Shown: in pieces, positions 22,561-36,737 of the stretch
Layout of the letters: the number at the start of each line of letters is the position of its first letter
How positions within the stretch are numbered: position 1 is the stretch's first letter
Source: Agaricus subrufescens
Lineage: Eukaryota > Basidiomycota > Agaricomycetes > Agaricales > Agaricaceae
Direction: 5' to 3'
DNA length: 64,000 nucleotides
Assembly: GCA_029945375.1 (NCBI GenBank)
Contig: CM057062.1
Coordinates: forward strand, 2,371,564-2,435,563
The notes under the pieces: model-generated
Told to the model about the DNA's origin: nothing
Seen by the model: the letters and a program-made list of their open reading frames with translations, nothing else
Databases searched by the model: none
Program-made: the position numbers and the translations under genes

Positions 22561-24110
22561 CTATTTATAACATAGTATGGGGCAGTTGTAATATGCAGGT
22601 AATATGTGAAACGAACTTTCCGTTGTCAGGCCCATGTCAACGATAGTGTCCTCGAAACCGGCTTCGAATCTGCTGTCCGCAATGACTTGAGAAGCTCGTG
22701 GACTGACAATGCCTTCGAGCATGAGAAGGTCATCTTCCACCATGCGTAGACGAAGATGGATGGGCATTGCTCGAGGATGACGAAGAGGAGATGACACCAG
22801 CAGTACTGGCGCCTCTGGTGGGTCTAAATATAAATTTGGCTCGATTAGGAACTTCTCCAACTCGGTAAACTGGTGGTATTGGGTCCATAACTGAATGGTC
22901 GTGCACTAGCGCAGGATGAAGAAACAGAAACGCCGGATGAAGCAGATGCAGGAAATGGCGATAACGGAGGGTTTGATGATCCAGTTGTAGTTGGAGTCGT
23001 AGGTAGAGCTCTGGTGCTGCTGCTTGATTTACAGCGAGTATTGTTGGTTGAAGATCATTTCACAGTGTAGACCAGTATAGCGTTGACCGGGATTTGGCCT
23101 AGTTGGGGCTTGGTTCTGAAGCGACGTTTGGAGTAGGAAAATCTTTCTCGGAGAGCTGAAAAGAAACCAGCAGAATATTGGAGATGAGTATTTCTGAAGA
23201 AGAGGAGTAGAACGCGTACGGGTGTTCTCAGTGAACTCAAGACCTCTAGCGAATATCCCGAAAAGGGTTGGAGGTCGAGGAACATACTCCAATTCCCGCC
23301 CTGCGGTATGACAAATTCTACGTTAAAACCTTCAGCTGCACTTGAGAGGAAGTGCTCACAGTTGACTGGCGAGATGTCAAAGGTTGTTGTGATGAATCCG
23401 GCCAACCACTGGCAGATCATGTGATGATGCTAGGTATCTCGGAATCAGAGTGCTGGTGGTTGACGAGCGAGGATGCGTCAGGCAGAGAGATATTGGATTT
23501 GACGGTAGGGGGGTGTACGGGCCAAGCGCGTTGAGATGAAAGTTGCTGTGTAGAGGTTGAGATGGATATAGATGAGAAATCCACAAGTTTGAAAAGTGGA
23601 AGCTCACCAGTGGCGGTATATGACGATGCATCAAATCTTGAAGGAGGCCGAGGGAGTGGGAGGACTGGATGGCGTAGAGGGCAAGTGGGGCAGGGGCGCT
23701 GAATTTCCGCAACGATAGAGGGGGAGTACAGACTCTGTTGCAAGGAGCGGCACCGCAATAGAGCGGGGGGCGAAATTGCAACACGTTGATTGCAGCCGTC
23801 TGGGAAAAGATGGCTTGATGAAGGATACATGTATGCGCTGAACCATGGCAAAGATCCTATACAGCTAAATTCCAATGGAATCCACTGTAAAAAGGAGTAA
23901 GCAACAAGATTCAAACGGCGTATATTGCGATCGTTTACCATAGATGACAGAAATTCGGCCAATTTTTCCAGGCTGAGATACCAGCGTAGACCATGTAGAC
24001 TGTTCTTCGCTCACTGAGTATGGTACCCATCCTCAGGGCGATGAAAGAGCGTTCCATAGAAGGAGAGGTCTCTCCGACCAAGCTGGAGCATCACTGGCGC
24101 CATATGGATT
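22561..24110 (-). pseudogene. Unrecognised minus-strand coding remnants
   Basis: Several open pieces look protein-like but do not join cleanly. One of about 99 codons at 22561-22860 (EKFLIEPNLYLDPPEAPVLL...) has a plausible upstream acceptor. One of about 120 codons lies at 23055-23420 (GGNWSMFLDLQPFSGYSLEV...). Overlapping pieces in all three frames cover 23377-23962 (SSMVNDRNIRRLNLVAYSFLQ...). The alternation of frames and stops suggests a decayed gene, perhaps of an F-box/LRR type, but I have no motif that supports a name. Confidence 0.3.
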
Positions 24111-24895
24111 CAATTAGCTCAGGGCTTGGGTGGAAATGGGAATAAAAGATTGCTTACCTCGCGCTACTGCGGTGGGATTGACCTGCAGTCGCCGCTCTAT
24201 AGTCAAGGTGGTGTTGGAACTGGCGCGGTACCAAATTGTTGTGGATGTTTGAATATGGCGGTGACCCTACATGGCACGAGGGTTCATCCATCCTCGTCCT
24301 CGATGCTTGTCGTTATCGTTTGGGGAGCTGTTTCGTAGACAGAGGCGGTGGTAGGAGGAGAGAAGGGCACTCGGCATTTTCCAGACAACGCATCTTGGGA
24401 CACTCATGCATAGAAACACCTTCGTCGGAGACCAAAGAGCGGGTAGCTGCTGGCTCGCTGATCAAGGCGGGGCGCGTCATTCTTAGCTCGCTATCAAAGT
24501 CGCTTGGTCTGTCTCTTGCTGATGCGCTTGCAGCCTTCGCACCCTTGCTGGGCTCTCGCCGGACCGCTCTTGGCTCATCGGCTCGCGCTCTCTCCTGGGC
24601 CATCCTCCTTACCTCATTCCTCGCCAAGTTCCTCCACCGTCGCCATACGATCTCAATCTCCCGCCACCGCCGCTGTACGAACAGTACACCTCTTAACAGG
24701 GTTTGTTTCCTCGACGGAGCGCTACCCCCTCTCGGGGCTCAAGTCCCAAGGTTGTACATATTGCTAACCAAGTAGGGAAATGTCATGCAGCAACTCGTCA
24801 TGAATCATTGGATGCCTAGTTTGACTATGCCTTGGGTCGAATGTGAGTGTCTGTGCTTCTTTGCGCCTCATCCACAGTTCGAGTCCAAGAGCTGA
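24111..24895. other. No recognisable gene
   Basis: Open stretches exist on both strands (up to about 180 codons on plus, 104 on minus at 24313-24627) but are compositionally biased (S/R/L or R/A/E rich). They overlap one another and show no family motif. Confidence 0.35.
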
Positions 24896-26165
24896 ATGCC
24901 GCCTGTCAGATTCGTGTTCGGCAGCTACGTTTGGAAGCGTGATGTAGAATACGCTTGGAATACGCAGACTTCAACGGCAAATGCATCACCTTCCAAATCC
25001 CTGTTGCTGCCCTCCTTGTTGGTTCTCTCATTGGGTATCTCTTGGGTATCTGTACGCCAATCCATCATTTGCGCGTACCCACCCTCGAAGTGTCTCCCGG
25101 AACCACTACAAACATGTCTGCCCAGACCCTTACATCCTGTATTCATGCGCCATCATAGACACACTTCCCTTGAACACCACTGCACTCTGGAGAATGAACG
25201 TATGGATCGACAAACTATGGAGCTTCACGGACCGCTGTGTCAAAATCGAAAAAGACACACCTCAGCTGGTCGACATCTGGTAAGTGCTTACTCGATCAAT
25301 TTTGTTTTTCTGTCGCCTCAAATCTCTCATAGGCAGTTTGGTACTCCACGGTTGCACGATATCATGCCAATGATATTCAACTTATCCCTTCTGAAGGATC
25401 TTGCCTGGTCGCCTCCGATTCATTCAGCCTTCCAGAAAAACGTGCATCACTTCACGTCCTCCACCTCGGATACGAAATATAAACTTGAGAAAATACTATT
25501 GTTGTATACTTCTTGGAACGGGGACTTTCCCTCGCGATACTACTGGAGTAGGCGCGGAACTTACCCTGTAACCCACACCGTCGGCCACAAAGGCCGAGCG
25601 CTGATCCTTCACTGCTCCTTGCTGTCTACCTCAGCCGAGGCAACTTCATCGAGCACTGCGATGATCATGTCTCATGGAACTCGGCAATACCATAGCTACA
25701 ACACCCTCCCATCCCTCCCCGACTGTTTCTTTGTCGGGAACAGTACCCACTCAGATGTCTTACCCAAGGACGAGCTCAAGAGAAGATACAGGGAGAAATG
25801 TCTCGTCGACATCAACATAGTGAGCAAGACAGTGGTGAAGGTGTGCGGGAGCGGTGCTCGGAAGGGCTAAAGATCAAAGAAGCGAAAACATCTTCAATAA
25901 CAAAATCAAAAATCAAAAACGTGTAGGGGAAGATCTACGCCTTGACCAACGGCGACACCAAATGTTTACAAGAACTCAAAGAGGGCCTGCACATCAACGC
26001 CCTTTGATCTCTGTCCAACACCATCTTCTCCCCCACTCTCACTGCCGCCGCCGACAAAGACGACAACAACTCAGCCTTGCTTACAGATTTCGATTACAAC
26101 TTTGTGTGGGACTGGGATGAAATTTCAATCAGTCGGGATCTAGATTCGGGATGGGAGACCAGGTA
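24896..26165 (+). pseudogene. Unrecognised plus-strand gene or gene remnant
   Basis: Protein-like segments lie in changing frames: a hydrophobic segment IPVAALLVGSLIGYLLGICT (about 24999-25060), MNVWIDKLWSFTDRCVKIEKDTPQLVDIW ending at a good donor (ggtaagt, 25280), an acceptor at about 25335, then FGTPRLHDIMPMIFNLSLLKDLAWS and further open sequence to about 25870. A separate piece ends ALLTDFDYNFVWDWDEISISRDLDSGWE at about 26155. I do not recognise the family. The frame changes suggest missed introns or decay. Confidence 0.3.
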
Positions 26166-26798
26166 CGTTGCGCAGGCGATGGGCAGCGGGCAGAGTTGTC
26201 CATTTCGCATAAATCCTCAAGTTTTGACGGCTTGCTTGCGGGTGCTGTATCTTGGTGTAGGGGGGTTTCGGCGATGCTGTCTACAAATGCATGTCTAGTC
26301 GTTTGGTTCTTTTTTTGTATGTTCGTTACTCGGGCTTGTGTATTTTTCCGTTTTGATACTCGCCGCATCCGTCTAGTACAATGTTAAGTAGGAACAACAT
26401 ATAGTAATAGAGGGAGTAGTGAGCTTTGGTGATAAGTCTTATCGAAAGTGCCCCGGGATTGGGGTGAGGGTAGTGGTGCGGATGATAATATGGGAAGACA
26501 TACTTAAAGTGACAATGCCGTTCAAATACTATTGTAGGTGTAAGAGCTGGGAGGGCGAGACGCGAAAACTTGTAGTCCTTTCAGATGGGGATAATGGATA
26601 AGGATGAGGAGACTCTGAAAAGGCAGCATGGATAGATGTTGTACATTTACAAGACAAAAACACAACAAGGAAAAAGTAGCATATGACAGACTCAGACTAT
26701 ACACAATTTGTCTCCTCCTTCACCAAGCTTGTATCCCAGTATTCTACACCCTGGCCTGTGAGGATCAACAGGTGAAAAGAAAAAAGATCTTAGACTTA

Positions 26799-27013
26799 CA
26801 GTGGCTCAAAAAACTGTCCCAATGTTTTGAGGTTTTCAACTATTTCAGTTATAGCGTCGTGGGAACATCGCAAAACATTACATAATAATTATGTATAGTA
26901 GTGTAGCATGTGATCTATTAGGGACATTTTGGATTACGTAAATTGATTGGAAACTGATTGAGAAATTAAATCAACAAAATAATCAATCATTGGGACAGTT
27001 TTTTGACTCTCTA
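26799..27013. repeat. Left terminal inverted arm of the Tc1/mariner element
   Basis: This 215-bp arm pairs with 28192-28406. Within the arm itself, TCAAAAAACTGTCCCAATG at the outer end recurs inverted at the inner end (cattgggacagttttttga at about 26989-27007). Each arm therefore has inverted ends of its own. Confidence 0.9.
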
Positions 27014-27025
27014 CCCTTGTTGTAA

Positions 27026-28047
27026 CTAATACTTTGTATGACCACCTTTAGCCTTGATAACTGCCTGGCACCTCCTAGGCATACTTTCTATAAGTCTCTG
27101 ACACTCTTCTGGAGTGATTTTGTTCCACTCTTTAGCTACCCTTTCCCACAAATCATGAACTCCTCTAGGTGGTTTGGAATATTCCTTCAACTTGTCCTTG
27201 AGGTTGATCCAAAGGTGTTCAATGGGATTTAAGTCAGGGGATTGGGCAGACCAGACTAGGACTTTGATGTTGTTGTCTTCAAACCACTTGTCTGTTCTTT
27301 TTGCCATGTGCTTGGGGTCATTATCATGTTGGAATATCCTCTTCCCCTCCTCCATCTCCAGTTTTTCAAAGCTGTCAACCACTCCACTGTCCAAAATATC
27401 ACAGTATTGCACAGAATCCATGATACCCTGAACCTCTGTAAGCATCCCAACTCCCTCCCATCCCATACAGCCCCATACCATAAGGTTATTCCCTCCTCCA
27501 TGTTTGACTGTAGGAGTAGTAGTCCTATCAGAAGGGCCCTCACCATTTTTCTTCCAGGTATACACCTTTCCATCTGACTGAATCCTACATTAATCTTGGT
27601 TTCATCTGACCACAAGATCCTTTTCCAGTCCTCCACTGTCCAATTTTTGTGATAATGAGCAAATTTGAGACAGTCTCTTCTATGTTGCTGTTTGAGGAGA
27701 GGACATTTCTTCTTTACAACAGCCCTAAATGAACTCTCTTTGAGAGTGTTTCTGACTGTTTGAGGATGTACTGGACTGGGAATGATGTTGTTGATATACT
27801 GGGCACCCTGAACTGCATTATCCAGCTGGCCAGTAGTGATTTGGTGAATGATTGCCCTTTTGTCCTGAGAAGAAAGCTTAGCTGGACAACCCCCTAACAT
27901 GTTCTCCTTGTCCTCATCAACCCCTTTCTTAATCCTCCCCACAGTAGACATCCCCAGACCAGTTCTAGACTGAATCTGACAAACAGAATAGCCTTCTTGA
28001 AGAAGAGATATGACAGAGGAGCATTGAGTAGAAGAAGTAGCTTTCAT
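27026..28047 (-). pseudogene. Tc1/mariner DDE transposase, one frameshift
   Basis: The frame starting at 28047 has an N-terminal helix-turn-helix region (about residues 1-110) and the first catalytic Asp in WSDETK. At about 27565-27600 the frame shifts, and the second frame continues YTWKKNGEGPSD, WGCMGWEGVG, IFQHDNDPKH (second Asp) and WSAQSPDLNPIEHLW (Glu), ending KGGHTKY at 27026. All three DDE residues survive with Tc1-type DD34E-like spacing, so a single indel is the only visible lesion. The total length of about 340 residues fits the family. Confidence 0.88.
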
Positions 28048-28191
28048 GGTGGTGGTTTAAGGTCAAGATGTGATTTAATCAAACTTTGATGATGCAAATT
28101 TATACAAACAAGGTCACATGACATTCTCAAATATTTCTGTACTTTTTCGGATTTTTATGAGGGCTCTAGAACAAGATTTGTCTCAGCTGAA

Positions 28192-28406
28192 TAGAGAGTC
28201 AAAAAACTGTCCCAATGATTGATTATTTTGTTGATTTAATTTCTCAATCAGTTTCCAATCAATTTACGTAATCCAAAATGTCCCTAATAGATCACATGCT
28301 ACGCTACTATACATAATTATTACGTAATGTTTTGCGATGTTCCCACGACGCTATAACTGAAATAGTTGAAAACCTCAAAACATTGGGACAGTTTTTTGAG
28401 CCACTG
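28192..28406. repeat. Right terminal inverted arm of the Tc1/mariner element
   Basis: It is the inverted partner of 26799-27013, with the same internal inverted ends. Confidence 0.9.
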
Positions 28407-28419
28407 TACTTCCTCTACC

Positions 28420-31400
28420 TCATGTACTTCTTGGGTGGTAAGGAACAATACAGTATGTGTCCCCCTCATGATCTCCAGGAAAAATTGCAACTTGGCCACC
28501 AGGAACTGCTCCACATACAAGGACTTGTAGATAGGGTGAAGTTTGTAAGAACCGTTTTGTTGCATGATCAATAACCTTATAAAGCCAAGAGAAAGTGAGG
28601 AATAACTGACTACAGTTCATGAACTGATGTACTTACACCCTGATTATGTAGAAAAGAAATAGTGAAGCATAGACCAGAGATCGGGAACTGATGTACTTAC
28701 AAACTGACCCATGAGATTTGTGGAAGAGAAATAGTTAGTGACAGACCAGACTTGACCAACTGATGTACTTACTTCCTGATGCATGAGATTTGTGGAAGAG
28801 AAATAGTCAAAGACAGACCAGACTTCACCAACTGATGTACTTACACCCTGATGCATGAGAGTTGTGGAAGAGAAATAGTCAATAACAGACAAGACTTCAC
28901 CAACTGATGTACTTACAGTCTGACGCATGAGATTTGTGGAAGAGAAATAGTCAATGACAGACCAGACTTCACTAACTGACGTACTTACATCCTGATGCAT
29001 GAGATTTGTGGAAGACAAATAGTCAATGACAGACCAGACTTCACCAATTGATGTACTTACACCCTGATGCATGAGATTTTTGGAAGAGAAATAGTCAATA
29101 ACAGACCAGACTTCACCAACTGATGTACTTACAATCTGATGCATGATATTTGTGGAAGAGAAATAGTCAATGACAGACCAGACTTCACCAACTGATGTAC
29201 TTACAGCCTGATGCATGAGATTTGTGGAAGAGAAATAGTCAATGACAGACCAGACTTCACCAACTGATGTACTTACATACTGATGCATGAGATTTGTGGA
29301 AGAGAAATAGTCAATGACAGACCAGACTTCACCAACTGATGTACTTACAATCTGACGCATGAGATTCGTGGAAGAGAACTAGTCAATAGAGGACTAGCCT
29401 TCACCAACTGATGTACTTACATGCTGAAGCATGAGATTTGTGGAAGAGAAATAGTCAATGACAGACCAGACTTCACCAACTCATGTACTTACATGCTAAT
29501 GCATGAAATTTGTGGAAGAGAAATAGTCAATGACAGACCAGACTTCACCAACTCATGTACTTACAGCCTGATGCATGAGAGTTGTGGAAGAGAAATAGTC
29601 AATGACAGACCAGACTTCACCAACTGATGTACTTACATACTGATGCATGAGATTCATGGAAGACAAATAGTCAATGACAGACCAGACTTCACCAACTCAT
29701 GTACTTACAATCTGATGCATGAGATTTGTGGAAGAGAACTAGTCAATGGAAGCCTAGCCTTCACCAACTGATGTACTTACATGCTGATGCATGAGATTTG
29801 TGGAAGAGAAATAGTCAATAACAGACAAGACTTCACCAACTGATGTACTTACATGCTAATGCATGAGATTTGTGGAAGAGAAATAGTCAAAGACAGACCA
29901 GACTTCACCAACTGATGTACTTACACGCTGATGCATGAGATTTGTGGAAGAGAAATAGTCAATGACAGACCAGACTTCACCAACTCATGTACTTACACCC
30001 TGATGCATGAGATTTGTTGAAGAGAAATAGTCACTGACAGACCAGACATCACCAACTGATGTACTTACACCCTGATGCATGAGATTTGTGGAAGAGAAAT
30101 AGTCAATGACAGACCAGACTTTACCAACTGATGTACTTACATGCTGATGCATGAGATTTGTGGAAGAGAAATAGTCAATGACAGACCAGACTTCACCAAT
30201 TGATGTACTTACAACCTGATCCATCAGATTTGTGCGACAAAATAGTCAATAACAGTCTGGACTTCACCAACTCATTTACTTACCACTCTAACCATATATT
30301 TTCCATTATCATCAAAGTCAACATCTATATCCTTGTAGTAGACCTCTCGGAACATCCCACTTTTACCAAGTTCATCTCGAAATTCCTGTAACAATAGTCA
30401 GAAATTCCTATCTTTGATACCAAGTCCAATACTACCTTCCATGCACCAAATGCTTTCCTAACAAATACATATACAATGCTAACACTGTAATTAGCACTCC
30501 ACAAACTATCATTGAAGTTGCAAAGCCTGATCATGTTAATATTCGAGACGGCATCAAACTCAATATCCTTTTGATGCAACTGTGACGAAATCCCTTGCTG
30601 AGCCTTAGATCTGTTAACTATCTCGGTTAGTAGTCTTTTGCCCATTTCTGCAAGAATATCTCTAGTAAATCCTATAATTTCTTCCTCCGGGAGTTCTGGC
30701 ATTCCGGCACTGATAAATTTGCCAGCTGAAAGCGTGTATGAGCATTACTCAAATATGATGAGCTATACTCAAACGTACCTGATTCCTCGCCACAATATTT
30801 ATCCCACAACTTGACATAGCCCAGTAACACATCGTGCTCAATACCATCAGCATCAATATAAAACTTCCCCGATCTTTGCTCATCCACCAGGTAGTCGGCA
30901 AAAGAAGCATGTAAGAATGTCAACGGCATCTTATGCGCTTCCTCTCGAGACGGTATCTTGAGGGTTGAAATACATTTGATGAGAGCGGGACGGACCTGAT
31001 CCGGATCCAGCTGGAGAACCAGAGCCATGCCTCTTAGTGTGTGGGATTTCAACGAAGCACGGATTCCCCAAGGATCATCGTTGCGGAACGCAAGTGCTAG
31101 CGCAAGCAAGTGTTGCGCTGCGGGTAGCGACTTCACTGGGATCTTTGAGAGAATCTCGGTGTACAGGTTGTCGAGATTCCTGAAGGGCTGCTCCTCGCTC
31201 GGAACACACTTCGAACGATCAATGACGGATAAGACAAGACTGAGGCGCGACACGGGATTACCCTCCTCAGGGTCCATGATGAACCGAACCGCAGTTGCGG
31301 CGAAAACAAAGAGGCCAGACGAAGCAGTTGCTAGCTTTGTGACGTCAGTTTTCACTGGCCAATTCGTGGGAACGACACCAGCAAACTTGCGTTGTATGAC

Positions 31401-32851
31401 GGCGAAGCTTTCATCCAAGAAGCGTGCAGCATCTGTGCGAGCATCCGGGTCATCGATGGAGATGGTGTATGACTTGAACTGTCCTTGCATTGGCGCCTCC
31501 CTGAACGCATTCATTATATACAACTCCAGACAACTCGCAATGACCCAGGTAAGGGGTGCATCCGGATAATCCTGCATAAATGTTCCGATGAGGCCGATGA
31601 TGTGTTGTTGGGCGTCTGCACCCTCAAGTTCATCAAGTCCATCCAGCAATATATCCAAGGGTGGCCCATCGACTCCAATCTTCCCTACTCCGAATGGCTC
31701 GATGATGAAGATTTGAAATTGTGTTTCCATATCTGTCTTAAGGATGAGGGGGTCGGCAGCAATCCGATCAACGATATAATTTCGGTAAGCTTCGATAGAA
31801 ACAGCGAGTCGGTACCCGATAGTGGTGAAGACCTGGTTCAGGTTGTTACATTTATTGGGTCGTGAAATGAATACAGAAATGACGGGATGGTCCGCATTTT
31901 CCGTGTAGGTCTGCATGACGGCGGATTTACCAACGCCTGCTGGACCAGTAAGGTGAAAAAGGGATTCGGAGCAGGAGGCGTCTTTGAACCAAGCCAGGAG
32001 CCATTTGAGAATTCCTTCACGTGTGCTGGGATGACACCTGGGGCGCTACTCGCGGGAGGCATCGTTTGGTGCGGAACCATCCATGACATACTCTAAAAGC
32101 AGTTTTATCACTGTGAACAAGGCAAATGAGTTGAGTTCTCGAAGAAATAAGATGACGGGTCTTACTAGGGTGTATCCCGCCCTCTCTTTCCCCAAAGGTG
32201 CCACCGTAGATATTAAAGCGATGAGCTCCAGCGAAATAGCTGCCTGTACCAGACGGAACTAAGGCGAACATGAGCTCCAATTGACATCATTCAAATAAAC
32301 ACACAGCCGCACCTTGCAAATTCCATGAAGACGAATCATAATTTCCAGCACCGGATTGATCGATCACAGCAGTGATAGGCGTCAGTGGGGCGAATGAGGG
32401 AGGGGCTGGGGCAACCATGAATCCTGACTCTCTCATCATACAAATACACACAAAAACACACCTAGGACATTGTGTGAAGGCGAAACATGACTTTCGGCAT
32501 TGACATCATGAGCTATGGTGGCGATAGGTGTCGGTTCGATGGGTGGAACAGGACATGAGGCAGTCATGAACTTGTGTTACTAAACAAGTATACGCAGAAA
32601 CATACCTCCTGTAGCCTGTAAAGACGAGGGACGATTTCCGGAGCTGGAGTCATGGATCATGCTGGCAGTGGGCCTCGGCTGGACAGATTGGAGAGGGACT
32701 GAAGCGACCATAAAATCGGATTGTGTCCTAGTGCAAGGATCTGGAGCATACCTGAGATTCCCGGTGAAGACCCAGAGGAGCCTCCCAGCCCAAGCGGATC
32801 GACCGTGCTGCTATTACGCCTACGTTTAAACAGCCCAAAGCAACAGGCCAT
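28420..32851 (-). CDS. NACHT NTPase (fungal NLR-like), about 769 aa if spliced as modelled; one in-frame TAG
   Basis: Exons modelled on the minus strand: 32752-32851, 32606-32698, 32313-32405, 32166-32258, 30779-32092, 30436-30725, 30284-30385, then 23 three-base exons between 24 introns (see the array), then 28420-28575. All phases fit. The N-terminus MACCFGLFKRRR is short and basic. Exon 32166-32258 has the FAGAHRFNIYGGTF signature known from mushroom NLRs. Exon 30779-32092 holds PRCHPSTREGIL, the Walker A LTGPAGVGKSAV, the Walker B ILLDGLDELEG and a NACHT-associated tail. The rest (PELPEEEIIGFTRDI ... NGKYMVRV and VIDHATKRFLQT ... PYHPRST) matches nothing I know. An in-frame TAG at 32046-32048, just before PRCHPSTR, breaks the model. 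The gene is either a pseudogene, or has another start, or carries a sequence error. NACHT NLRs act as intracellular sensors in heterokaryon incompatibility and probably immunity. Confidence 0.7.
28576..30283 (-). repeat. Tandem array of 24 intron-like units with 23 single-codon spacers
   Basis: The array has a 72-bp period (21 of 22 intervals are 72 bp, one is 64). Read on the minus strand each unit is GTAAGTACATCAGTTGG...CTCATGCATCAG, 69 nt with consensus 5' and 3' splice sites, followed by three bases. The first unit is 30216-30283 (68 nt) and the last is 28576-28636 (61 nt, ending AAG). Every unit keeps GTAAGT and every inner unit ends CAG or TAG. The three spacer bases vary while the 69 bases are well conserved. 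Read through without splicing, at least seven units contain in-frame stops (TGA in those with ACATGAGTT, TAG in two with GACTAGTTC). Coding sequence in phase 0 lies on both sides. It is not CRISPR: repeat and spacer sizes are wrong and it sits inside a gene. Confidence 0.85.
32166..32698 (-). repeat. Tandemly repeated 93-nt exon modules of the NACHT gene
   Basis: Exons 32606-32698, 32313-32405 and 32166-32258 are each exactly 93 nt and phase 1 on both sides. They are separated by short introns beginning GTATG or GTGYG. A fourth module at about 32461-32553 has the same layout (PVPPIEPTPIATIAHDVNAES) but its acceptor reads CAT instead of CAG, so it is probably skipped. The first modules share a P-x-P-T/I-A/T...HD/DQ-S-S/G-x-GN pattern, and the last module has become the GGTF exon. 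The repeats are visible in spacing, splice phase and protein pattern. Confidence 0.65.
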
Positions 32852-33339
32852 GATTTAGAGTGCTGCAAACAGAAAACAAAAGTTGTGTCAAGAGGACCAC
32901 TGCGAGGATCGTGAAGGTGCAATGTTTGGGCCACACCTCTTTGAGTTGGAGTTCTGTGAGCAGGGATTTGTGCGTACGAGGTTGGGTGGCAAGAGAAATC
33001 AGCTGGTCTCGTGCCTCTGATCATGGGCATGAGTTCTCTCACAGACGTGCTGTGCTTGTGCTAATTATAAACTACAAACGAAGGCTAAGTACACTACATG
33101 ACCACACGTCTCACTGTTAGACCTCGGAGGAGCGCAGGGGACAAAAACATATATAAGACTGGCTGGTAGCAGAAAAAATTACTGAGGTAACATAGGGAAG
33201 AACCATGAACATGAAAAACACAGTACCGGACGGGCATATGTTCCCACAATCAGGCGGGCTGTACGCCAGAAGTCTCTCCAATACTGGACTCGGGTAGGGT
33301 AGAGAAAGTGTGCTGTGAAATATCTTCCAGAGAAGGAGT
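32852..33339. other. Upstream flank of the NACHT gene; no gene seen
   Basis: There are no ORFs with recognisable motifs. It should contain the promoter of the minus-strand NACHT gene. No clear TATA box was found. Confidence 0.4.
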
Positions 33340-33515
33340 AGCCTTGCACAGGATTAGCACGACTTTATCTGGGGCTAGTGTGGAGGTGAGGAGGCTGGCT
33401 AGAACGATGGCAGTGCCTATGATGAACTTGTACTCATAGGCAAAGCTAAGGGCCTGTTGAAGAAGGTCGTGAGTGAGGAAGACATGAGAATCACCGTGCC
33501 AGAGAAGAGGTTACT
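33340..33515 (-). pseudogene. P450 first-exon remnant (part of the duplicated block)
   Basis: On the minus strand LLQQALSFAYEYKFIIGTAIVL corresponds to LQQILNYAYEYRFIIGTVALV in the first exon of the intact P450 at 51422-51512. The surrounding DNA (gcagtgcctatgatgaa.. through tacttctaggtcaa) also matches 51430-51560. The rest of the P450 is absent. Confidence 0.7.
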
Positions 33516-33647
33516 TCTAGGTCAAGAGAGTTGAGCGAGAAACTGTGGAATGCCAAACCATATGATATATAGTGTGAGAGAGACCCGGTAATGAATAGAA
33601 CTATTAGAAACCCACGTGGAAGGCATCAACTGCCCTTAGAACTGGAG

Positions 33648-34672
33648 ATGCAAGTCCCTACTCGCGTTATTCTCGGCTTTTCATGGCTTGCGTAAAAGGT
33701 CGCTTTCGCCAAGTAGGGCTCTGATGGCTTTCTCCGTTGGCTGGGCAGTTTATCTGGGGACTGTCGGTGTTCGGTACAGCACTCATAGGGATTTTACTCG
33801 ATCAGGAGCCGGAGCTACGAAATGTACGTCTATAGGGAGAGAGAAAATGAACTGTGACTGACTTGACCTGGATGGAAAACAGCGCAAGGCGAAATCGGAG
33901 GACGAGTATCAGGAGGCAGGGTAGCAAGTGTTGTGCAATAGCGCGTCTGGGATCGTAACGGAAATCGCTTGGAACGCGTTGATTTGTGCAGGGGAGTGGC
34001 AGGCTGGGATTGGGCGATAGTTGGCAGCTGAGGGAGGGGTGGGTGGTGTCCGCTCAAGAGAGATAGCAGGCGATGCTGCTCTTTGGGGCACTTGGGTAAG
34101 CCGCACAGGAGGGAGTGAGCAGGTTTATTGACAATCTGCAGGCGCTTCGCATGCTGTCTGCTGGCGTTGAAGCTGAGTGTCCTGGCGAGGCGCGGGCCAT
34201 GGCTCGTTCTGGCGCGTGCCCCCAAGAAACGAAGCCATGCCCGTTGCGGGCATTTTTGTTTCCATTTTGGGGGGGTGCTGCCGTCGGGGTCCTCATGACG
34301 TCCACTCTCGTCTTCAAGAACGTGCGGTGCAGACAGGACTGCGGCTCGGTGGCGTCCCTTATATTGTGGGGCGCCTTTGCTGGCTTCTTTGGCAGCTGGT
34401 GCGTCAGATATCACCACAACTGGGTCACTAACAATAGCAAAAAGAGACAGGTTGATTCCCTGATGGGTGCGACTATTCAGCACACACGCTACTCAAAGGG
34501 GGTTGTTCTGCAGGACGCGTGGCGGGCTGAGGGTGAGGTGATCAGTGGGCTCAACCTGCTCACGAACAACCAGGTGTGTGTGTGTGTGGCTTGTTGAGTG
34601 ATTTGTTGCTGATGGTGCGCAGGTCAATCTGGCATTGTCGGTGATTACCTCGTTGGTGATTGGGGTCGCGTC
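33648..34672 (+). pseudogene. TMEM19/DUF92-like pseudogene (duplicate of 52571-53678)
   Basis: The nucleotide sequence follows the intact gene at 52571-53678 through all five exons and the introns. It has many substitutions and several small and mid-size deletions (for example near 33655 and 33970) that destroy the frame, including in-frame stops in exon 1. The last exon joins directly to glycogen synthase sequence at about 34672-34680, so the intergenic region and the first ~260 bases of the glycogen synthase gene are missing. Confidence 0.85.
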
Positions 34673-35182
34673 GCGGTCGCTGGCTCATCGAATGCAATCC
34701 ACATGTTGTCCTCTTTGACACCAGCAGCATGTGCTCCTACCTCAACGAGTGCAAGGTCGATCTTTGGAACTCAGCTGGCATCCCAAGCCCTCCAAACAGT
34801 CACCAGACCAACGAGACGATTAGTTATTGCTTGGTTCCTTGGCGATGTCAGCCCACTTTCCCTACTCCGCTCTTCTCCTTCCCCCCTGATTTTCCTTTTG
34901 CTAAATCTGCCATCAGCTCTCCACTACCGCCATTGTTCACTTTCACGAATGGCCAGCTGGCCTCGTTATCCCGCTTTGCTGCAAATGCCACATCAGTGTA
35001 ACAGCCGTCTTCACAACCCATGCCACCCTTCTGGCCCGATATCTCTGCGCTGGCTTTGCCAATTTCTACAACAACCTCCAGTAGTTTGACGTTGACCATG
35101 AGACCTGAACATGCGGTATCCATCACCAATACTACATCAAAAGTTCTGCAGCCCACTATGCTGGCCTTTTCACGACCACTTC
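34673..35182 (+). pseudogene. Glycogen synthase pseudogene, left part
   Basis: It matches the intact gene from [18 protein letters not shown] (54000) to the site corresponding to 54523, where gypsy-2 is inserted. Exon 1 has lost the bases encoding VFG, and later exon sequence has frameshifts and stops. The right part continues at 48114. Confidence 0.88.
35178..35182. repeat. Target-site duplication of gypsy-2, left copy (ACTTC)
   Basis: ACTTC precedes the LTR at 35183. GCTTC follows the other LTR at 48114-48118, with one mismatch. The intact paralog at 54519-54530 has the uninterrupted sequence cgaccgtttctcaca. Confidence 0.75.
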
Positions 35183-35439
35183 TGTTAACCGCTAAGAGGT
35201 TCCCTAAGAGGGCAGCTTCGTAGAGAAGGAGAAACAATGTAATACCAAGATGTTCTAACTACAACATAAGTAGACGTTTATATACTATCTTCCTCCTACC
35301 ATATGGGTTTTGTTAAAGGATCTATAGAGCAGAACGAGCAAGAGATAATAAAGCGGAGGAGGAGAGAGTAACAAGAGAAACAGGCAGAGAGGGAATATGA
35401 AAAAGAAAAATATTCGGGAGGGGACGTATGGGCATAACA
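35183..35439 (-). repeat. 3' LTR of gypsy-2 (257 bp)
   Basis: On the plus strand it begins TGTTAACCGC and ends GGGCATAACA. It is a copy of 47857-48113. Purine-rich sequence (on minus, gacaggggcta) flanks its inner end at about 35440-35452. Confidence 0.95.
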
Positions 35440-35568
35440 TTAGCCCCTGTCTAGGGTCGAGATTCCAGCGAGACTTCTATGGTTATTTTTTTTTTGCTAG
35501 GTTATTCGTTTGAGAGATTACGTGGTTAGGACGTGATATTCGAGTAGGTATGTTTTTGTGAATTTTCT

Positions 35569-36737
35569 TCAATAGACATGTGGTTCAGAGGTGATGTTTG
35601 AGTAATAGTCATTGTCGATGTTTTCGTCGTGTGTTGAATCAAATGAAGAAAGAAGGGATTTAAATGGGCAATCGTTAGGGAAATGGTCCGCTTGAGTTCC
35701 CAGACAATACCGACATTGATAAGAAGGACATTGAAGGAGGGCATGTCCAGGTTGCTGACACAACAAACATCGATACAGAGGACAACAAGTAAGGCTGTGG
35801 CCCGGGGCATTCAAGTTGCAGAAACGGCAAGTGTACTTGGGGCAGTAGACAGCAAAGTGACCAGTCTTGCCACATTCATGACAAGCTAATTGGGTCTCAG
35901 GTCCGGGTTGCGGGATTCGAGGGGATGTTCGAGGGTTGGGGTATGCGCTGAAAATACATCGTGCAATACGATCGGATACTCTCTGTAATCGGAGACTGTT
36001 TTCAAGGTTTCGCAGACTTCCAATATGCGTTGCAACTTCTGTTCGGGATTGGAGGAGTTGTCGATGATGATCTGCGTAAGCGAGGAGAGTGCTTCGTTGA
36101 CAATTACCGGAACACAGGTTGAGGAGGCGAAGTATATTGGTATTTGATTCGAAGAACTCTGGGTGCGAGTGGGTGGCGAGGGACAGCGAATCACGAGTTC
36201 CCTGGGCCTCTCTAGGAAGAGGTTCATGGGTGTTTCTAGATTGAGTGGGAAAGGGTTCTGATCGAAAAGTTCTTTCATCTCGCGAGTGATAAATAGTGTT
36301 GGTATAGGGGAGTGTATTGGCATTTGCCATGGCTCTTCCGGGGGAAGATGTTCGAGTTGAATCGAGAGAGGGGGAGATGAGGTTACCGGGTGAAGTTGGC
36401 GAAACAGGTCGTTCCATTCTTCCATAGTCTGAGGATGGTCGGAGTGGTCCTGCCTCAAGAGGGAGAATGGGGTTGATGTCACAGGTGGCGAGGGCGGTGC
36501 TGAGATCCTCGCGATATTGTTGAGCAAAGTTGAGGGTCTGTTCGAGGGTAAGGTTTCGGAGAATTCAAGCAATGGTGGTGGGGGAGAGATTGGCGGAGAG
36601 ACATTGGATAGCGGGGCTGGTAGGGGTTGTTGGTCTGGGTTGTTGGTAGATGGGGATAGTGGAGGCTGGTCGGTCCAAGGGCTCCGACCATTCCATGGAT
36701 CTTGATGATTGACTAGGGGATCGGGTGTGTTCGACAT
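35569..36737 (-). pseudogene. gypsy-2 third ORF with four CCHC-type zinc knuckles (two overlapping frames)
   Basis: It begins 21 bp after the pol stop. The first frame (36737-35886, 283 codons) is proline-rich at its N-terminus, then has a folded-looking part (LFITREMKELFDQNPFPLNLE, EALSSLTQIIIDNSSNPEQKLQ). Near its end the other frame (open 36417-35569) takes over and encodes CHECGKTGHFAVYC, CRFCNLNAPGHSLTCC, CLLCQQPGHALLQC and CRYCLGTQADHFPNDC, ending in an acidic tail. A frameshift, or programmed slippage, near 35890-35950 would join them. A nucleic-acid binding role is inferred from the knuckles. A separate gene after integrase is not part of the basic gypsy plan. Confidence 0.6.

Follow-up and report, generated by a model that had tools for sequence, protein, structure and literature searches.

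The NACHT-ANK (nank) genes of Tuber melanosporum (Iotti et al. 2012, Fungal Biol 116:261) are described, in the papers that cite this report, as containing dozens of mini-exons of 3 bp, and in the same passages alternative splicing is reported and the C-terminal recognition part is proposed to be diversified (PMC9815663, PMC4986451, PMC3689799, PMC10197012). In the HET-D/HET-E (HNWD) genes of Podospora, according to the passages devoted to them, near-identical WD40 repeats undergo concerted evolution and a few hypervariable codons are under diversifying selection (PMC12222747, PMC4986451). With respect to short exons, the passages on the P450 genes of Phanerochaete chrysosporium describe microexons, the shortest of which measures 6 bp (PMC1184071), and with respect to repeated introns, fungal introner-like elements are presented as many near-identical spliceosomal introns in one genome (PMC4457414). 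A Rhizoctonia genome paper, considered as a further microexon precedent, was set aside, the microexon mention in the passage concerned being a software setting. In the titles and abstract beginnings of the open-licence literature, neither basidiomycete arrays of 3-nt exons nor a codon-versus-intron signature came to light.

The array presented here belongs to a gene of Agaricus subrufescens and is located in a window of 64,000 nt, a term used for the whole stretch of DNA that was analysed. The original prediction made for this DNA stated that no described gene was known with two dozen consecutive introns around 3-nt exons, a statement contradicted by the truffle precedent as reported in the citing papers (PMC9815663, PMC4986451, PMC3689799, PMC10197012).

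The array and its host gene

The features of the gene, all on the minus strand, are given below in the order of reading.

30672..32045, minus strand: open frame (stop to stop) with a NACHT/STAND ATPase domain (NPHP3_N, match to PF24883) and the start of the C-terminal region
30726..30778, minus strand: predicted ordinary intron, GTACGT...CAG, phase 1 (sequence reading)
30436..30725, minus strand: C-terminal exon AGKFISAGM...FGAWK (sequence reading; conserved in paralogs)
30386..30435, minus strand: predicted ordinary intron of 50 nt (sequence reading; paralog exon borders)
30284..30385, minus strand: phase-0 exon before the array, EFRDELGK...NGKYMVRV (sequence reading and paralog matches)
28576..30283, minus strand: array of 24 introns (68, 21 x 69, 61 and 61 nt), between them 23 exons of one codon each, VHGGRHHIYAHHIYAIGDTGEFG (sequence parse)
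28420..28575, minus strand: phase-0 terminal exon with the stop codon, VIDHATKRFLQTSP...CIVPYHPRST, beginning VIDHATKRFL (sequence reading and paralog matches)

A unit-by-unit parse of the minus strand from 30283 to 28576 resolves 24 consecutive GTAAGT...AG introns enclosing 23 exons of exactly 3 nt each, so that the tandem array of intron-like units parted by single codons, and the minisatellite unit made of one intron plus one codon, are both as originally predicted. The intron lengths are, in order, 68, 21 x 69, 61 and 61 nt; the announced unit of a 69-nt intron plus three bases thus applies to 21 introns and has to be corrected for the other three. Both splice sites are indeed kept in every unit, with GTAAGT donors in 24/24 introns and acceptors of the expected CAG (21/24) or TAG (2/24) type in 23 of them, the last one ending in AAG instead. 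Mini-exons 1-12 read GTT CAT GGT GGT CGT CAT CAT ATT TAT GCT CAT CAT and mini-exons 13-23 read ATT TAT GCT ATT GGT GAT ACT GGT GAA TTT GGT; once joined, these codons encode VHGGRHHIYAHHIYAIGDTGEFG, in which a five-unit duplication appears as HHIYA written twice. Sequence reading agrees with the prediction on the phase-0 exons at both sides and on the reading frame, which is kept on skipping as every mini-exon consists of one phase-0 codon. The array amounts to 1708 nt (1 mod 3), and its full retention therefore shifts the frame; in addition, ten of the 24 introns contain a stop in phase 0 from their own donor, where stops in at least seven units had been claimed. Tandem Repeats Finder returns 22.8 copies of period 72 with a score of 2566. 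This score, the presence of at least 25 array loci in the genome and the excess of the junction pattern over its reversed control confirm that the tandem units and their single codons are real and not a product of chance.

The host gene is NLR-like, as anticipated, its PF24883 (NPHP3_N) match reaching 36.2 bits for a cut-off of 24.8. The NACHT model of Pfam itself scores 13.7 bits on the window gene, below its own cut-off; among three Agaricus relatives, NPHP3_N exceeds the Pfam cut-off in 3/3 and NACHT in 2/3. The last part of the open frame at 30672..32045 reads into and beyond the next intron. Searched alone against a protein database, the NACHT part gives 121 matches, and among the best 120 of these the top named ones come from Agaricus bisporus (55% identity), with the gene Agabi119p4_10318 as the closest named relative, and the unnamed metagenome proteins reach at most 72% identity. 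A Pfam comparison of the joined C-terminal exons gave no family at E<=5, and no WD40, ANK or TPR repeats; the spliced C-terminal protein yielded 73 candidates in a large protein database, none of them at E<=0.001. A search of a plasmid collection with the terminal exon gave no match, as expected.

Directly downstream of the gene, at 26797-28408 of the window, a Tc1/mariner-like element was recognised by sequence reading, with a transposase-like frame (28056-27256), and inverted repeats of ~204 bp at both ends, the repeat being present in many copies genome-wide. The DNA at 24083-26800 is about 70-79% conserved beside other array genes (near L003, L005, L006, L007 and L009). A conserved downstream neighbour gene was considered there and dropped: the matches are spread about equally over several frames of both strands, many of them interrupted by stops, no single reading frame is conserved, and nine frames compared with Pfam matched no family, so that this DNA looks like a duplicated flank. 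On the other side, an open frame at 35569-36564 of the minus strand exhibits, by eye, repeated CCHC-like zinc knuckles, of a retroelement gag-like or nucleic-acid binding type.

A family of arrays with variable codons

In the search of the own genome of the fungus (44.65 Mb, 44 contigs), 32 matching stretches were obtained and 30 were cut out as loci, five of which overlap others, to give at least 25 array loci, all from one gene family. The junction pattern YAGNNTGTAAGTNCAT occurs 271 times in this genome versus 7 times for the same pattern read backwards, and the 100 listed of the 271 matches all fall within known arrays of the family. Locus L002 is letter-identical to the window array locus over 4901 bp, and for L001/L002, which duplicate each other exactly, the possible origins are a recent duplication and an assembly copy. 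A ~100% identical copy of window 24000-36000 (C6:2395563-2407563), established on the three stretches 24000-27000, 27000-31900 and 33500-36000, is also present at a distance of ~556 kb on that contig (C6:1839123-1851123), either as a recent segmental duplication or as an assembly copy.

Twenty-four other array loci were parsed; five of them closely resemble another one (L023/L025 in and near the gene only), and L008, L016, L021, L023 and L027 were accordingly left out of the codon and exon-length counts, 19 arrays being used for codons. As read from the sequence, the number of mini-exons is 23 in the window and about 4 to 29 elsewhere. According to their units, the arrays are subdivided in two classes of 12 arrays each: class A with units of 72 bp (69-nt intron) and class B with units of mostly 71 bp (68-nt intron; 84/112 units in 7 of the 12 class-B arrays). 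An upstream-exon match occurs at 22 of the 24 parsed loci, a terminal-exon match at 20 (19 with E below 1e-3), and both at 18. The exon gaps of L021 and L027 belong to loci that appear cut off by contig ends, and the terminal exon of L026 lies outside its locus, at C4:621833. The exon searches of the loci found no terminal exon for L010 and no upstream exon for L012 and L024, for which reason these three may be gene fragments.

The splice signals are maintained throughout the family. Counted on full-length intron bodies that were located without using the sites, near-identical arrays included and 21 and 25 partial bodies set aside, both splice sites are intact in 180/187 class-A and 175/190 class-B introns; some of the failures correspond to GTAGGT donors (several in L014, L023 and L025, one in L009) and one, in L027, to the edge of the locus. 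The branch A is found in 166/166 class-A units and in 0.99 of class B. At junctions located via the intron bodies, with partial bodies (8 and 4) and near-identical arrays excluded, the exon measures 3 nt in 126/136 class-B and 168/173 class-A cases. The introns in 7 of the 12 class-B arrays range between 63 and 75 nt, and the length of 105/112 is not divisible by 3; if retained, every one of the 24 parsed arrays would meet at least three stops. Broken units occur in L005, L008, L009, L011, L013, L014, L015, L021, L023, L025 and L026, and the upstream exon of L011 carries a stop, which suggests that some arrays may be decaying. At L005 ~2977 and L009 ~2422, the usual acceptor is lost and an upstream CAG would yield an exon of 12 nt, a length once more divisible by 3. 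Two class-A intron variants and the class-B consensus showed nothing unusual in RNA folding (z 0.06, -1.33 and 0.73). Class-A intron columns 14, 27 and 67 show mainly C/G alternation and are far more variable than most others; the idea that column 14 pairs with column 67 was given up.

The variability of the units is concentrated in the codon. Among 166 class-A units chosen for GT, AG and a 72-bp length (L004 and L008 both included), the most variable of the 72 columns are codon positions 2 and 1, with 1.99 and 1.62 bits out of a possible 2, versus an intron mean of 0.28, and the columns of the intron body without a known role are mostly 94-99% conserved. In class B (112 units from 7 of the 12 arrays), codon positions 1 and 2 reach 1.72 and 1.86 bits, the top intron column 1.49 and the intron mean 0.60. 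Taken singly, 11/11 class-A arrays tested have codon position 1 or 2 as their top column, and codon position 2 exceeds every intron column in 6/7 class-B arrays, the exception being L025, where three intron columns are at least as variable. Pairs of units with letter-identical 69-nt introns differ in their codon in 162 of 182 cases (89/101 within arrays, 73/81 between arrays), and all these differences are nonsynonymous, with no synonymous one; the pairs, from which those between L004 and L008 were left out, are not mutually independent. The share of codon differences, 0.89 in identical-intron pairs, compares with 0.92 in random pairs.

Codon position 3 behaves otherwise. Over the 311 codons of the 19 arrays, four chain-end parsing artefacts having been dropped (last of L005 and L018, first of L019 and L025) and one TTG inside L019 being a possible artefact, this position is T in 268 and C, which is always synonymous with T, just once. 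A possible reason is that T in this place is preferred for splicing. The two bases that decide the amino acid thus vary and the mostly silent third base seldom does, a pattern that speaks for selection acting on the peptide, and tells against a non-coding array as well as against a mutator that ignores codon position. No stop occurs among the 311 codons, for a shuffle expectation of 2.7 within arrays (P(0)=0.03) and of 2.2 over all arrays (P(0)=0.10); a codon of the form NNT is never a stop, hence this absence says little and counts as weak support for the reading proposed below.

Near-identical arrays give an idea of how the units change. L016 and L017, 99.05% identical over 4.3 kb, concentrate 28/40 difference groups in about 190 bp of array; one of the two would encode a peptide ending ...MYMYMYLFPWH, the other one ending ...MYMLFPLFPWH. 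L004 and L008 are 99.29% identical, and 17/30 difference groups are located in the array, with other clusters upstream; the array differences include a codon exchanged together with adjacent intron bases, and a disrupted unit. These patch-like differences, together with the duplicated HHIYA block of the window, are read as traces of unit exchange. The exact donor of the L008 patch was not found among the array loci compared. The hypervariable codons and the family of at least 25 loci, like the published precedent, are the main points that the original prediction had missed.

Probable origin, splicing and encoded peptide

The paralogs L061 and L062 possess a single ordinary phase-0 intron at the array site, e.g., CGA|gtgagt...cacag|CCA, and no corresponding contiguous codons. 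Both were reached via weak terminal-exon matches (best weak E 3e-7; 2e-3 for L062 and 5e-3 for L061), and another comparison gave 16-18 bits, values that point to homology of the array-less C-terminus with moderate strength. Of the 26 Agaricus-type proteins that were aligned, 20, counted by eye, continue across the site without an insert, and six have gaps or other sequence there. The simplest history would be that one intron was duplicated in tandem with three exon bases and then expanded. The terminal exon is under purifying selection as judged from its sequence, dN/dS being below 1 in 34/35 usable pairs from nine class-A arrays (median 0.5); for the upstream exon of eight class-A arrays, the signal is weak, with a median of 0.65, values below 1 in 19/28 pairs and a value of 6 in one pair. 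The arrays compared were chosen from the 12 of class A for a clear exon match, L008 and the pseudogene-like L011 being among those excluded.

The best reading of these data, which we consider probable, is an intron-plus-codon minisatellite that would be spliced unit by unit, encode a hypervariable peptide, and owe its diversity to selection and to the exchange of units. Tandem multiplication would have started from a phase-0 intron of the ordinary kind, situated close to the 3' end of a NACHT gene, and would have carried along three exon bases, to create a repeat unit consisting of a complete short intron and one codon. The introns would be recognised by intron definition and removed singly, and the 23 codons of the window joined into a short peptide. 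Their near identity would allow the units to recombine and convert readily, altering the length and order of the peptide, and selection would hold the introns spliceable and favour codon change. What results would be a hypervariable loop that most likely serves as the recognition surface of a receptor-like protein conserved in its other parts. We infer unit-by-unit splicing and translation of the codons, with diversifying selection as the probable driver of their change.

Unit-by-unit splicing finds indirect support in introns that are not triplets in length and nevertheless enclose exons of 3 nt, and in the divergence of the codons but not of the introns. Exon definition can hardly work on exons of 3 nt, and introns of 60-70 nt suit intron definition. 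With an acceptor and the next donor 3 nt apart, neighbouring introns are probably not recognised together, which would make their removal sequential or alternating, and the anatomy of the array is plausibly compatible with recursive or stepwise splicing. Moreover, the exons being all of 3 nt and in phase 0, the skipping of any set of units keeps the frame, and alternative splicing of the mini-exons could add further variants.

If the array were instead removed as one long composite intron, from the first donor to the last acceptor, its codons would never enter the mRNA and it would be a plain intronic minisatellite. The frame does survive such skipping, and very short exons are in general hard to include; yet non-coding pieces of 3 nt should be as homogeneous as the intron bodies, and they are near random, the codon differences between identical-intron pairs are all nonsynonymous, and hardly any unit has lost its internal donor, branch A or acceptor, which makes this explanation unlikely. 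The opposite fate, a retained array translated as 24-residue repeats with one variable residue, like the WD40 repeats of fungal NLRs, is hardly conceivable and was rejected: in-frame stops interrupt 10/24 window introns, the first intron of the array has 68 nt, and at least three stops occur in each of the 24 parsed arrays; class-B units are mostly 71 bp long (84/112) and the read-through frame has no homologue at E<=10, despite a 244-residue open stretch in the window array and a high internal identity which, with the hypervariable residue, resembles the WD40 pattern.

The decorrelation of codons from introns, even among identical introns, implies very fast change, as would result from a targeted process such as hypermutation of exon bases, rather than mainly from selection; however, a third position that is far less variable, with C nearly absent, is unlike the work of a position-blind mutator, and the patch-like differences between near-identical copies further render this proposal distinctly improbable. 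As to the independent insertion of introner-like elements at the codon borders of an exon that was already there, L061 and L062 lack corresponding contiguous codons at the site, the 100 listed of the 271 junction matches are all in arrays of one family, and units duplicate in blocks, e.g., HHIYA twice, so that such insertions, for which the near-identical introns beside unrelated codons do speak, are very improbable.

Returning to the intron-plus-codon minisatellite, the peptide can be tentatively placed in the protein with an AlphaFold2 model of P0029, an Agaricus relative without an array (26 sequences, mean pLDDT 75.7). The array site, transferred by protein alignment, corresponds to residue 660/661, after the strand 655-660 and before the helix 665-681, with a mean pLDDT of 71 in the ten residues before it and of 91 after it. 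At the end of a strand and before a helix, the array peptide would form an inserted loop, hypervariable and about 4 to 29 residues long, near a strand-helix junction of the C-terminal domain. The best 50 Foldseek rows for the whole model are mostly AAA+/STAND proteins with a low TM-score. A role of this loop in recognition is a natural guess, given that the variation of a protein that is receptor-like and elsewhere conserved falls on this peptide.

Known systems and the Agaricus arrays

If this reading is true, the spliceosome is able to excise two dozen introns in succession with a single codon between neighbours, and introns become a substrate of receptor diversification, in which the repetitive part (the intron) is uncoupled from the variable part (the codon). 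Tests of non-self recognition in fungi could be aimed at one defined loop, and the part of these receptors that varies most would escape gene finders. A broader proposal, to which we give somewhat less than an even chance, is that the introns act as a recombination scaffold and the codons as variable cargo, that optional splicing of each codon creates many loop variants, and that the system arose in Agaricaceae-like fungi independently of truffles.

The micro-exon genes of schistosomes have many tiny symmetric exons and give variable proteins; they resemble the Agaricus genes in these exons and differ in the greater exon length, and they are not known to contain arrays of near-identical introns. 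The P450 genes of Phanerochaete, likewise a gene family of a basidiomycete, have short introns and very short exons in common with the arrays, but their shortest exon has 6 bp and no near-identical intron arrays appear in the passages describing them. With introner-like elements, the Agaricus introns share their large number and near identity within one genome; the 100 listed of 271 matches lie in tandem arrays of one gene family, which speaks against a dispersal over many unrelated genes. The HNWD genes, as their passages depict them, also combine near-identical repeats with a few hypervariable codons in NLRs; there, however, the repeat is translated and structural, whereas 69 of the 72 bp are intron in Agaricus and one codon per repeat would reach the protein.

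The truffle nank genes, compared here through citing papers only, resemble the Agaricus gene in belonging to the NACHT NLR-like superfamily and in their dozens of codon-sized exons, which in Agaricus are known by sequence alone. They differ by their ankyrin repeats, the Agaricus gene having no ankyrin match in Pfam, and by what is inferred to be another fungal phylum; hypervariable codons, homogeneous introns and array-less paralogs are shown for the Agaricus arrays. Dozens of 3-bp exons in NACHT genes are thus known from the truffle, as far as the citing papers report, and what is new is an Agaricus family without an ankyrin match, presumably in another phylum. Taken with the truffle report, this points to a possibly repeated origin, among fungi, of NLR exons the size of a codon.
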